From NCBI GenBank assembly GCA_025454495.1, contig JALOOI010000014.1, positions 1 to 33,038 on the forward strand: a DNA stretch of 33,038 nt. The letters are read 5' to 3'. Under the pieces are notes generated by a model that saw only the letters and a list, made by a program, of their open reading frames with translations, made no database searches and was not told the DNA's origin. The stretch comes from Anaerolineae bacterium (GTDB lineage: Bacteria; Chloroflexota; Anaerolineae; Aggregatilineales; Phototrophicaceae). Position numbers and translations under genes: made by a program. Below are positions 1,195 through 26,767 of the stretch, in pieces; position 1 is the first letter of the stretch, and each line of letters begins with the position of its first letter.

Positions 1195-2912
1195 ATGTGC
1201 GGCATCGTCGGTTATGTGGGATCGCAGGAAGCAACGCCCATCATTCTGGATGGGCTGGGCCGGCTGGAGTATCGTGGTTACGACTCCGCCGGGGTCGCGG
1301 TGCTTCAGCAGGCAAACATCGAAGTCCGGCGCGATGTCGGTAAACTCATCAACCTGCGTCATCGCGTGTATCAGCAGCCCATTCACGGCAGCATCGGCAT
1401 TGGCCACACGCGCTGGGCCACGCACGGCGTGCCGGCCGAACACAACGCCCACCCGCACGTCAGCATGAACGGCGATTTTGTGGTGGTGCACAATGGCATC
1501 GTGGAAAATTACCAGGAACTGCGCGAAGAACTGACGGCCGAGGGGGTCACGTTTACCTCGGAAACGGATACCGAAGTGATCGTGCAGCTTGTCGAGCGCC
1601 TGGCGGCCAACGGCGTGCATGACCTGACGGAAGCCGCGCGGCAGACGGTGAAGCACCTGCGCGGGGCCCATGCCATCGTGCTGATGAGCCGGCACCAGCC
1701 GGATCGCCTGGTGGCCATCCGCATCGGCAATGCCGGCGGCGTGGCCATTGGCGTGGGCGAGCAGGAAAATTACGTCGCCTCCGATATGCCGGCCATCCTG
1801 GAATATACGCGCCGGATGGTGTTCCTGGAGACGCGCCAGATCGCCACCATCACCGCCGACGGCATTACCCTGCAAACGCTGGACGGGGCCCCGGTGGAGG
1901 CCGTCATCCACAATATCCCCTATGACCCGGTGAGCGCGGTGAAGGGCGAATACAAGCACTTCATGCAGAAGGAAATTTACGAGCAGCCGCGCAGCATCAC
2001 CGATACCATCCGCGGGCGCATTGATTTTGAGCATCAAACGGTACACATCCCGGAATTGAACCTGACGGCGGAACGGGCGCAATCGCTCACCCGCATGGTG
2101 ACGGTGGCCTGCGGCACCAGCTACTACAGCGGCCTGGTGGGTAAATTCTTCATCGAACACATGGCGCGGCTGAACGTGGAAGTGGATTATGGCAGCGAAT
2201 ACCGCTACCGTGATCCTATTCTGGACGCGAACACGGCCGTGCTGGCCATCACCCAGAGCGGCGAAACGGTGGATACGCTGGCCGCGCTGGAAGAAGCCCG
2301 CGAGAAAAAATCGCTCATCTGGAGCATTGTGAACGCCATCGGCAGCCAGGCCATGCGCGTGGCGGATGGTTACATCACCATGAACGCCGGCCCGGAGATC
2401 GGCGTGGCTTCCACCAAAGCCTTCACCACCAGCATTGTGGATCAATACCTGCTGGCGCTGTACCTGGGGCAGTTGCGCGGCACGCTGAAGCCGGACGTGC
2501 TGCATCGTTACACCCAGGACATCGCCCGCCTGCCTAACCTGGTGGGGCAAACGCTGGAACTGGAAAACCACATCGAAGAACTGGCACGGCTGTTCTACAA
2601 GGCCAGCAACTTTTTGTACCTGGGGCGCGGCATCAATTACCCCATCGCGCTGGAAGGGGCGCTCAAGCTGAAGGAAATCAGCTATATCCACGCCGAAGGC
2701 TACCCGGCCGGCGAAATGAAGCACGGGCCCATCGCGCTCATTGATGAGCAAATGCCGGTGCTGGCCATCGCCCTCAAGGATTCGGTCTACGACAAGATGA
2801 TTAGCCAGATTGAGCAATCCAAAGCCCGCGGCGGCAAAGTGATCGCCGTGGCCACCGAAGGCGACGAGTTCACCAGCCGCGTAACCTGGCCAAAAGCGTG
2901 ACGGTGGAATAA
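1195..2912 (+). pseudogene. glmS: glmS, glutamine--fructose-6-phosphate aminotransferase, with 3' deletion and frameshift
   Basis: GlmS makes glucosamine-6-phosphate from fructose-6-phosphate and glutamine, the entry step to UDP-GlcNAc and peptidoglycan. The N-terminus MCGIVGYVG has the Cys that acts as the glutaminase nucleophile. The glutaminase domain is followed by the two SIS domains (CGTSYYSG and TQSGETVDT motifs in SIS-1; EGALKLKEISY and EGYPAGEMKHGPIAL in SIS-2). A GAGG lies 8 nt before the ATG. The in-frame protein stops at the TGA at 2899-2901 (568 residues), ending in a non-family tail after ATEGDE. In the next frame, 2874-2912 encodes QPRNLAKSVTVE and a stop, the family's conserved C-terminus with the isomerase lysine (K603 in E. 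coli). About 40 codons between these points are missing and the junction near 2867 is out of frame. The gene is either disrupted or mis-assembled here. Confidence 0.85.
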
Positions 2913-3693: not shown

Positions 3694-4731
3694 ATGAGAG
3701 CATTTGTCACCGGGGGAACGGGGCTGCTGGGCAGCAACGTCGTCAGCCTGCTGCTGGCGCAGGGGCATGAGGTGCTGGTGCTGGCCCGGTCAGCCGCGAA
3801 GGCCGCGCAACTGCTGCCGGCCGGTGTCACGGTGCTGACCGGCGATATGGCCGATGTGCCGGCCTTCGCCCATCATCTGGCCGGGGTGGATGTGGTGTTT
3901 CACACGGCGGCCTATTTCCGTGAATACTTCAGCACCGGCGATCATCGGGCGCGGCTGGAGCAGATTAACGTGCAGGCCACCATGCAGCTTTTGAACGCTG
4001 CCGAAGCGCAGGGCGTAAAAAAGGTGATCTACGTCAGTTCTTCCGGGGTGATCGGCCTAAAACCGGGCGGTCTGCCCGGCGATGAAACCACCCCGCCGGA
4101 TGCCCACACCCACAGTAACCTGTATTTTCACAGCAAAGTGCTGGCCGAAGAAGCTATCAGCGCCTGGTTGCAGACGCATCGCCTGCCGGTGGTGCTCATC
4201 CTGCCGACAGCCATTTTTGGCCCCGGCGACTCGGGCCCCACCGGGGCCGGGCAGATGATCCTGGATGCGCTGACCGGCCGCCTGCCGGCCATCCCGCCGG
4301 GGGGCCTGAGCGTGGTGGATGTGCGCGAGGTGGCGCAGGCGATGGTGAACGCGGTGGAGCGCGGCCGCAGCGGTGAGCGTTACATCATCAACCACCGTTA
4401 CTACAGCATCGGCGAAATTCTGGCGCTGCTGGAACGACTGACGGGCATTCCCGGGCCGCGCCTGCCGCTGCCCTATCCGCTGGCGCTGCTGGTGGCCACT
4501 GGCTCCGAACTGGTCTCCCGGCTGACCGGCACCGAACCGCAGATCACGGTGAACGCTATACGCACGCTGGGGCTGCGCCGCGAAGTCCGCACCGACAAAG
4601 CGCAGCGCGAACTGGGCATTCAGACGCGCCCGTTTGAAGAGACTCTGCGCGATGAGGTGGACTGGTTCGCCCGGCACGGCTACATCAAAGATGCCCGCGT
4701 TCTGGGCCAACTGGCGCACAGGGCCCGCTGA
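3694..4731 (+). CDS. NAD(P)-dependent epimerase/dehydratase, dihydroflavonol-4-reductase-like
   Basis: This 345-residue protein is an extended short-chain dehydrogenase/reductase. The nucleotide-binding loop TGGTGLLG is at residues 6-13, the Ser triad region VSSSG is near 114-118, and the catalytic YFHSK (Tyr144, Lys148) fits YxxxK. The tail ELGIQTRPFEETLRDEVDWF is the conserved end of the DFR-like/hopanoid-associated sugar epimerase group. The ATG is preceded by AGGAG at 6 nt spacing. The substrate cannot be assigned; a TetR-controlled gene of this family may act on an aldehyde, ketone or nucleotide sugar. The last 140 bp of this gene are repeated directly downstream as a degenerate copy, but this copy is intact. 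Confidence 0.88.
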   Translation: MRAFVTGGTGLLGSNVVSLLLAQGHEVLVLARSAAKAAQLLPAGVTVLTGDMADVPAFAHHLAGVDVVFHTAAYFREYFSTGDHRARLEQINVQATMQLLNAAEAQGVKKVIYVSSSGVIGLKPGGLPGDETTPPDAHTHSNLYFHSKVLAEEAISAWLQTHRLPVVLILPTAIFGPGDSGPTGAGQMILDALTGRLPAIPPGGLSVVDVREVAQAMVNAVERGRSGERYIINHRYYSIGEILALLERLTGIPGPRLPLPYPLALLVATGSELVSRLTGTEPQITVNAIRTLGLRREVRTDKAQRELGIQTRPFEETLRDEVDWFARHGYIKDARVLGQLAHRAR

Positions 4732-4913
4732 GGCTGTCGCGCAGGGCCCGCAGCGACAAAGCGCAGCGCGAACCGGGCATTCAGACGCGCCCGTTTGAAG
4801 AGACCCCGCGCGATGAGGTGGACTGGTTCGCCCGGCACGGCTGCATCAAAGATGCCCGCGTCCCGGGCCAACCGGCGCACAGGGCCCGCTGAGGCTGTCG
4901 CGCAGGGCCCGCA
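4592..4913. repeat. 161-bp tandem duplication over the 3' ends of two convergent genes
   Basis: Copy 1 (4592-4752) contains the last 140 bp of the epimerase gene and 21 bp beyond its stop. Copy 2 (4753-4913) follows directly, and cutC ends inside copy 2. The pentamer CCGCA marks all three boundaries (4587-4591, 4748-4752, 4909-4913), suggesting duplication by microhomology. The copies differ at eight positions: T-to-C at 4613/4774, 4644/4805, 4646/4807, 4701/4862, 4703/4864 and 4712/4873, A-to-G at 4682/4843, and C-to-G at the junction base 4592/4753. Four Leu codons (CTG) of copy 1 have become CCG in copy 2, and a Tyr codon has become Cys, so the epimerase part of copy 2 is decaying. Confidence 0.93.
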
Positions 4914-5547
4914 CTTTGTCCGCGTCCACGCGGCCTGCTGTCATCACGGCGCTGGCGGTGTGCACGGCGTGTACGCCGGTGAATGCCACCAGGTCGGCCG
5001 CGGTGGCCAGGCGCACCCGGCCGGCCGCCACAAAATGATACTCCGGGCAGGCCTGCACCCACTGCCGCAGGGTATCCCGCCCCAGGTCAACCTCCGGCGC
5101 ACTGCCCGAAGCCAGCACCCGCTGCACCGTGCCCCGCAGAGCATCCAGCGCCGGCAGCGGGTTCACACAGTGATCCAGCGCCCGGTGCAGCGTGATGACG
5201 GCCGCCGGGGCCACGGCCGCCACCTGGCGGATGAGATCAACATCCAGCGTGCCATCCGGCCGCAGCCCGCCGATGACCAGCCCATCCACCCCCAGGAGCA
5301 GCATCTGCGCCGCCTGCGCCAGGATGTGCTGCTGTTCCGCCGGCGTGTACACGAAATCGTGGGCGTGCGGGCGCAGGATCACATGCAGCGGCAGCCGCAC
5401 CTGCGCCCGAATGGACTGCACCAGCGCCGGCGGCGGCGTGAGGCCGTCCTGCGCCAGATCAATGGAAATTTCGATGCTGTTCGCACCGCCGGCGGCCGCC
5501 TGCTGCGCGTCTGCCAGGGTGGTGACTGCCACTTCCAGGCACGTCAT
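4846..5547 (-). CDS. cutC: CutC family protein (copper homeostasis protein CutC-like)
   Basis: The 233-residue product is a TIM-barrel CutC protein. It begins MTCLEVAVTTLADAQQA and has the family phrases GGANSIEIS, VILRPHAHDFVY, GVDGLVIGGL, ITLHRALDH and a late ILASG-like segment (VLASGSAPEV). CutC proteins were named for copper sensitivity in E. coli, but their biochemical role is unsettled. The ATG at 5547 has GGAG 8 nt upstream and lies 18 bp after the ATPase stop, so the two are probably one operon with a shared metal-ion theme. An upstream in-frame extension (to 5670) lies inside the ATPase and is rejected. The last 22 or so residues are encoded by copy 2 of the tandem duplication; one substitution there turns a Glu into Gly relative to copy 1, and two others are silent. 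Confidence 0.85.
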   Translation of the reverse strand: MTCLEVAVTTLADAQQAAAGGANSIEISIDLAQDGLTPPPALVQSIRAQVRLPLHVILRPHAHDFVYTPAEQQHILAQAAQMLLLGVDGLVIGGLRPDGTLDVDLIRQVAAVAPAAVITLHRALDHCVNPLPALDALRGTVQRVLASGSAPEVDLGRDTLRQWVQACPEYHFVAAGRVRLATAADLVAFTGVHAVHTASAVMTAGRVDADKVRALRDSLSGPCAPVGPGRGHL

Positions 5548-24913: not shown

Positions 24914-26767
24914 TTAGCTCTGGTTGACCAGGCAGGTGAGCGTGAGCGTAAACGCGCCGCGGCTGCTGCCCAGGTCCTGCTGGAAGCGGGTGGCCACGAT
25001 GGTATAGGTGCCGGCGGGCAGGCGAATTTCGCGCAGGAAGGCGTTGCTGCCGCCCCCGCGCGGGTCATCGTCGTTTTCAAAAATGAGCGTATTATCCGCA
25101 TCCAGCACTTTTAAAAACGTATCCAGGTTGCCCGCAGTCGCCTGCATGTCCAGATCGACGGTGACGGTGCGCGGGGTGGTGAAGGTGTAAGCGCTGCTGA
25201 AGGCCTCATTGCTGAGCTGGCCGCTGACGGTGCTATCACAGGTGATGGGGGTGGCTGCGCCGGTGACGGTGACGCTGCTGCCAATGGTGCCCTGTGCCGG
25301 GGTCAGCGTCAGGCTGAGGGTAAACGTGCCGGTGGTGCTGCCCAGGTCCTGCTGAAAACGGCTGGCGATGATGGTGTACTGGCCATCGGCGGGCAGTTCA
25401 AACGCGCGGATGAAGCTGTTTTTGCCCGCGCCGGCGCTGGTATCATCATCGTTAAAGACCAGTTCGGTGCCCGCCGCATCGGCCAGGATCAGCAGCGGGT
25501 CCAGGTCGCCGCTGTCGGCCAGCATCTGGATATCGACCACATCGCCGGTGCGGCCGCTGAAGACGAAACGCACGGCAAAGGCTTCCTCGCTGATGCTGCC
25601 GGTGGTGGTATAGGTTGCGCCATCGGCCAGGTCGGCCGGCGCAATGACCGTGCCGTTAACGATGAGCGTAATGCCCAGGATTTCGCGCAGGTCGCCGGTG
25701 CCGGTGTCGCAGGCGGCCACGCCTTCGGTCACGCCGCTGAACGGGGTCGTGTCCAGTTCCAGGTAGCGGCGCAGGTCAGCGCAGGCGGCTTCATCCTGCC
25801 CCAGGGCGGCCAGCGCATAGCCGCGGCTGTACAGCGCGTAGGCATTCTCCGGCTCGATGGCCAGCGCGGCACTAAAATCCGCGGCGGCGGCCGTATAATC
25901 GCCCTGGAAATAGTAGGCATCGCCCCGGCCGTTGAGTGCCGAAACGCGATCCGGGGCCAGTTCCAGCGCCCGGATAAAATCTTCGATGGCGGCCGGATAA
26001 TTGCGAAGATTGTAATAAGCGTAGGCGCGGCCTTCGTAAGCATCGGCATCGCCGGCGTTCAGCTCAATGGAGCGATCATAGGCCACGATGGCCCCTTCGT
26101 AATCATCAAGCTGCCGCCGGGTGAAGCCCAGGTTATAGAAGATGATGGCGCTGTCCGGGTTCAATTCGGCGGCCCGTTCAAAATCGACCAGGGCCAGGGT
26201 GTGTTCGCCAAGCTGGCTGTAACTAAAGCCGCGGCTGTTCAGCACATCGGCATTGTCCGGGTCGAGTTCCAGGGCGCGGGTGTACAGGTCAACCGCCCGC
26301 TGATACTGCCCGTTGCCGCGCTGGGTATCCGCCTGGTTCAGCAGCACTTCGATTTCGCCGGTGGCTCCGCGCGGCGTATTGGTCGGTGTCCTGGTGGGTG
26401 TGTGCGTGGGCGGGCTGGTGGGCGTATCCGTCGGTGTTTGCGTCGGCGTGCCGGTGGGTGTGCTGGTGGGCGTAGCAGTCGGTGTCTGCGTGGGTGTAGC
26501 AGTCGGCGTGCCGGTGGGCGTGTGCGTCGGTGTGCTGGTGGGTGTGTGCGTTGGCGTGCTGGTGGGCGTATGCGTCGGCGTATGGGTGGCTGATGGTGTG
26601 CTGGTGGCCGTCGCCGTGGGCGTGGCGGTTTCGGTGGGTATGCGCGTGGGGATGAGTGCGCCGCGCAGGGTAGCCGACGGCAGCGGTACGGGCGTGCCAT
26701 CGGCGGGCTGGCAGGCCGCCAGCACCAGGCTGAAAAGAACAATCACCGAAATGAGGCGCACAGACAC
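24914..26767 (-). CDS. Lipoprotein with Pro-Thr linker, TPR array and two PPC-like C-terminal domains
   Basis: The 617-residue protein begins with a lipoprotein signal; LVLAAC puts the acylated Cys at residue 19. Residues of about 40-130 form a low-complexity linker of TPT tetrads. A TPR array of about six to seven units follows (for example [21 protein letters not shown], quoted short, and [12 protein letters not shown]), then two beta-rich domains sharing [20 protein letters not shown] and [19 protein letters not shown], typical of pre-peptidase C-terminal type domains. It is probably a surface scaffold that binds partners. The GTG at 26767 was chosen because GGGGG lies 7 nt upstream; a TTG at 26794 would weaken the signal peptide. 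It is 53 bp after the ddl stop. Confidence 0.88.
26375..26640 (-). repeat. Minisatellite-like DNA coding for a Pro-Thr linker
   Basis: Twelve-base units with the pattern CGCCCACC/ACACCCACC recur about twenty times, coding (T/S/G/A/H/Q)TPT tetrads. The DNA units are not identical, so drift at third positions keeps the peptide while the sequence varies. Such tracts are prone to copy-number change by slippage and to assembly collapse. Confidence 0.85.

Follow-up and report, generated by a model that had tools for sequence, protein, structure and literature searches.

A 161-bp tandem duplication across the ends of convergent SDR-family and cutC genes, and the tail-to-tail overlap it probably resolved

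Overlaps between convergent genes can arise by stop-codon loss (the SCM mechanism; PMC2174442), and bacteria also form tandem duplications whose junctions carry only a few bases of homology. Here we describe a locus from an Anaerolineae bacterium at which these two kinds of event appear to have met; our literature searches found no description of an overlap resolved by tandem duplication. The window is an entire 33,038-bp contig (C86) of a 4.74-Mb, 382-contig assembly that is 91% complete. Genome-wide statistics were drawn from a 1.27-Mb sample of this assembly (120 stretches, each up to 20 kb), in which genes were called with a home-made heuristic gene caller that misses some genes. The features of the locus are as follows.

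3694-4731, + strand: SDR-family sugar epimerase/dehydratase gene (extended SDR, HpnA-like), 345 aa, ending inside repeat copy 1
4587-4747: repeat copy 1, comprising the SDR gene 3' end plus 16 bp
4587-4592, + strand: left boundary, CCGCAC
4685-4731: counterpart of the putative ancestral 47-bp overlap, from in-silico removal of either copy
4732-4845: spacer, 114 bp, 70% GC, a product of the duplication
4748-4908: repeat copy 2, comprising a relic of the SDR end (4748-4845), which has become spacer, and the cutC 3' end (4846-4908)
4748-4753, + strand: internal junction, CCGCAG, where the two parental sites have C as their final base
4846-5547, - strand: cutC-family gene, 233 aa, with its final 21 codons, stop included, within repeat copy 2
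4909-4914, + strand: right boundary, CCGCAC

The two genes belong to well-known families. The SDR protein matches the Pfam Epimerase model (5.4e-35), and its best NCBIfam model is TIGR03466 (HpnA); the score of 288.1 bits falls below the curated cut-off of 367.65, and we therefore do not assign the protein to HpnA. A TetR-family gene lies upstream of the SDR gene in divergent orientation. The CutC protein matches Pfam CutC (PF03932; 2.2e-36) with a score of 125.7, above the gathering cut-off of 23.3, and scores 119 bits against NCBIfam PRK11572, under the cut-off of that model. Its conserved part stops near residue 220, where the closest CutC relatives also end (LRxIL), so that the last 13 or so predicted residues, antisense to the SDR end, form an extension beyond the relatives. 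SDR orthologues terminate 0 to about 20 residues past a conserved GY(I/V) motif.

The repeat consists of two 161-bp copies arranged head-to-tail without a gap. They are 95% identical over the 161 bp (TRF score 600, far beyond chance), and the longest run identical between them is 40 bp (4713-4752). A genome search with the repeat unit returned no other copy, except for a weak 35-bp, 86% match on contig C370. Six bases of microhomology accompany the copies: each parental site reads CCGCAC, and the internal junction reads CCGCAG. An earlier note on this DNA had claimed a tandem duplication at 4587-4913 with CCGCA at all three boundaries and a microhomology junction; all of this holds, the third CCGCA occupying 4909-4913 directly after copy 2. 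Adjacent head-to-tail copies with a short identical sequence at the parental sites and the junction are what a microhomology-junction tandem duplication is expected to leave. As a separate observation, GACAAAG at 4594-4600, just within the left boundary, has its reverse complement CTTTGTC at 4913-4919, at the right boundary; this 7-base inverted match flanks the duplication and is possibly a matter of chance.

With either copy removed in silico, the stops fall at 4685 for cutC (233 aa) and at 4731 for the SDR gene (345 aa), and both frames are open across a 47-bp tail-to-tail overlap. These are the ends that the earlier note had predicted, as is the present arrangement in which each gene has a private 3' end, the SDR gene in copy 1 and cutC in copy 2. 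No stop in the cutC frame occurs in either copy from the SDR stop to the junction, so the two ancestral genes most likely overlapped already when the duplication took place. The overlap would touch solely the non-conserved tails of the two proteins, beginning at about CutC residue 220. Among 198 convergent pairs called heuristically in the genome sample, 37 overlap, two of them by at least 40 bp; an overlap of 47 bp would therefore be long, not outlandish. Taken together, a history in which duplication separated an overlap is well supported by the sequence of the locus.

Among 98 genomes of the family, close SDR orthologues occur in 5 others and CutC in 39 others; among 154 genomes of the order, 8 others have a close SDR orthologue, and 7 of these 8 retain the SDR-TetR pair. 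Translated comparison of the loci, which included at most 1.5 kb of flank apiece and covered all but nine of the weakest cutC matches, found SDR-cutC adjacency in no relative checked. The one genome of the same genus among those compared lacks both cutC and a close SDR orthologue. Within the order we found no single-copy relative with the SDR-cutC pair, and a scan of genome contigs gave only distant SDRs. The SDR-cutC juxtaposition looks lineage-specific, and the overlapping ancestor is a reconstruction from this one sequence.

Eight bases differ between the copies. Seven are internal transitions, given here with the copy-1 base first: T>C at 4613, 4644, 4646, 4701, 4703 and 4712 and A>G at 4682. 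The earlier note had described seven differences at which copy 1 always has AT and copy 2 always GC; these are all present, and the note omitted an eighth, C>G at 4592/4753, at the final position of the CCGCAC microhomology. SDR orthologues (51-64% identity) have Leu at codon 4612 in 6 of 6 cases, Leu, Val or Ile and never Pro at codon 4645, and Tyr at codon 4681 in 5 of 6, where copy 2 encodes Pro, Pro and Cys, respectively. These residues make copy 1 the ancestral state at those three sites. Polarity is firm for these 3 of the 7 internal changes, the SDR tail being only loosely alignable; orthologues do not polarize the tail leucines (4702, 4711) or the SDR-synonymous sites (4644, 4701).

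The changes are divided between two kinds of DNA. Four of the seven lie in the spacer (copy-2 positions 4774, 4805, 4807 and 4843) and three in the cutC coding sequence (4862, 4864 and 4873). In the cutC frame the latter comprise one GAA>GGA replacement (Glu to Gly) and two synonymous CCA>CCG changes (Pro) at 4864 and 4873. Were the genes still overlapping, the SDR frame would read each of these two as a Leu-to-Pro replacement. They are harmless to the SDR protein only after the frames have parted, and are therefore a direct sign of released constraint. The proposal that copy 2 is the relaxed copy stands in so far as copy 1 is ancestral as the SDR end; copy 2 is not wholly relaxed, with three of its seven changes in coding DNA of cutC.

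Based on these data, we propose a history of overlap, microhomology duplication and neutral retention, which we regard as the probable explanation of the locus as a whole. In this lineage, cutC would have come to lie tail-to-tail with the SDR gene with no stop codon at its old end, and its frame would have continued antisense to the SDR 3' end for 14 codons and a stop, so that two dispensable tails overlapped by 47 bp. Slippage or a template switch at the 6-base CCGCAC may then have produced the 161-bp duplication that is seen today. Copy 1 would have stayed with the SDR gene and the far end of copy 2 with cutC, freeing cutC from the SDR frame and leaving an intergenic SDR relic to gather substitutions. 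Persistence of the repeat may follow from the same substitutions: if recombination restored a single copy, any crossover ahead of 4713 would leave the SDR gene with relic codons and its protein with Leu-to-Pro and Tyr-to-Cys replacements; the last 40 identical bases (4713-4752) alone would be safe. The duplication probably has no function; it would be neutral, and retained because loss of a copy would by now harm the SDR gene in most cases.

A different reading takes the uniform direction of the internal changes as its starting point. The earlier note saw in them AT-to-GC decay of unconstrained DNA, and the relaxed copy could have been the target of a genuine GC-directed process, either GC-biased gene conversion or an A-to-G mutator specific to one strand. 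All seven internal differences are indeed AT>GC transitions, and on one strand six of them read T>C (P = 0.027, post hoc). The significance of the direction hinges on the reference chosen: P is 0.0004 for an equilibrium GC of 49%, 0.011 for 68% and 0.33 for 92% (fourfold-site GC). Our neutral reference was the short convergent spacers (mean GC 0.684 over 97 spacers of the genome sample) and not the overall intergenic GC of 0.49, because convergent spacers are the closer analogue and because the simple gene caller misses some genes. On this best reference the case is weak: the expected AT>GC share at a 68.4% GC equilibrium is 0.55, and the four spacer changes, all to GC, give P = 0.09. The seven changes together (P about 0.01 at 68% equilibrium) make some real bias possible. 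Against such a process, cutC coding DNA holds three of the seven changes, and codon preference explains two of these (among proline codons in the sample, CCA accounts for 4.1% and CCG for 60.8%); only three of the seven have firm polarity, and the other tandem repeats in the 1.27-Mb sample show unpolarized changes in both directions. Not all of the changed sites are thus unconstrained and polarized, and the claim of GC-directed decay of unconstrained DNA is not supported in the form given. Bacterial mutation is described as generally AT-biased in PMC2936535; a GC-ward result would therefore mean a bias in fixation, and three polarized sites cannot demonstrate one. We consider it unlikely that a GC-directed process acted on the relaxed copy, and distinctly unlikely that a strong and perhaps strand-specific process drives relaxed DNA in this genome to GC, with the locus recording it in addition to overlap resolution. 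We attribute the all-GC direction to cutC codon preference, high-GC convergent spacers and small numbers combined.

Selection for the duplication itself, by giving each gene its own terminator or by lessening transcriptional collision, would suit the enlargement of the spacer to 114 bp and a weak hairpin-plus-T match on the cutC strand (4868-4854) that includes one changed base. Terminator-like matches are, however, no more frequent than in shuffled sequence (1 found versus 1.3 expected) and folding z-scores are near 0, so that no signal for a terminator or RNA-structure role at the locus rises above shuffles; we think selection very unlikely. We give equally little credence to an assembly or strain-mixing artefact, in which this metagenome-assembled genome would truly have one copy. 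The assembly is fragmented into 382 contigs, and glmS, 1.7 kb away, has an odd apparent internal deletion with a frameshift; but six bases of junction homology would not suffice for a de Bruijn join, no stretch identical between the copies exceeds 40 bp, which lets a short-read assembler with a larger k tell them apart, and the SDR allele of a second strain would not be expected to have Leu-to-Pro replacements at conserved sites. Overlap followed by duplication and neutral retention is the reading we keep.

Several further observations were made at and around the locus. The terminator-like hairpin at 4854-4868 on the - strand reads GCCCG-GGACG-CGGGC and lies just before the cutC stop, and its closing G-C pair is present in copy 2 only. 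Elsewhere in the window, a degenerate 24/48/60-bp tandem array occupies 26373-26589 within a predicted gene (24914-26761, - strand). The glmS gene (1195-2901) is the genome's only full-length glmS match and appears to lack about 127 bp close to its 3' end, with an accompanying frameshift (window 2860-2910); its conserved C-terminus QPRNLAKSVTVE resumes in another frame, and relatives have some 43 more codons there. The gene is usually essential, and the apparent deletion may be a true lesion or a fault of assembly. In the genome sample, tandem repeats at L092:2-153, L100:1-365, L167:1-274 and L180:1-312 begin at contig base 1 or 2, as if the assembly broke within them.

The duplication is real, neat and ordinary in kind, and GC-directed decay is not established; with too few changes that are both polarized and unconstrained, the locus alone has no bearing on GC-biased substitution in bacteria. 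Its value is as a clean single-locus case of undoing a tail-to-tail overlap, in which the shared ends were duplicated and one was kept for each gene, and as a display of constraint release in two cutC-synonymous changes that the SDR frame would read as Leu to Pro. The putative ancestral overlap fits the stop-codon-loss route (PMC2174442): as in SCM convergent overlaps, one gene would have read through into the antisense of the other, tail-to-tail. It differs in that the overlap here would have been undone by tandem duplication, and in that overlaps of its length class (at least 40 bp) are rare in the sample. Like the short-junction (microhomology) tandem duplications of bacteria, this one is a head-to-tail copy with a few bases of junction homology, whereas it is small, 5% diverged by age and spans two gene ends.
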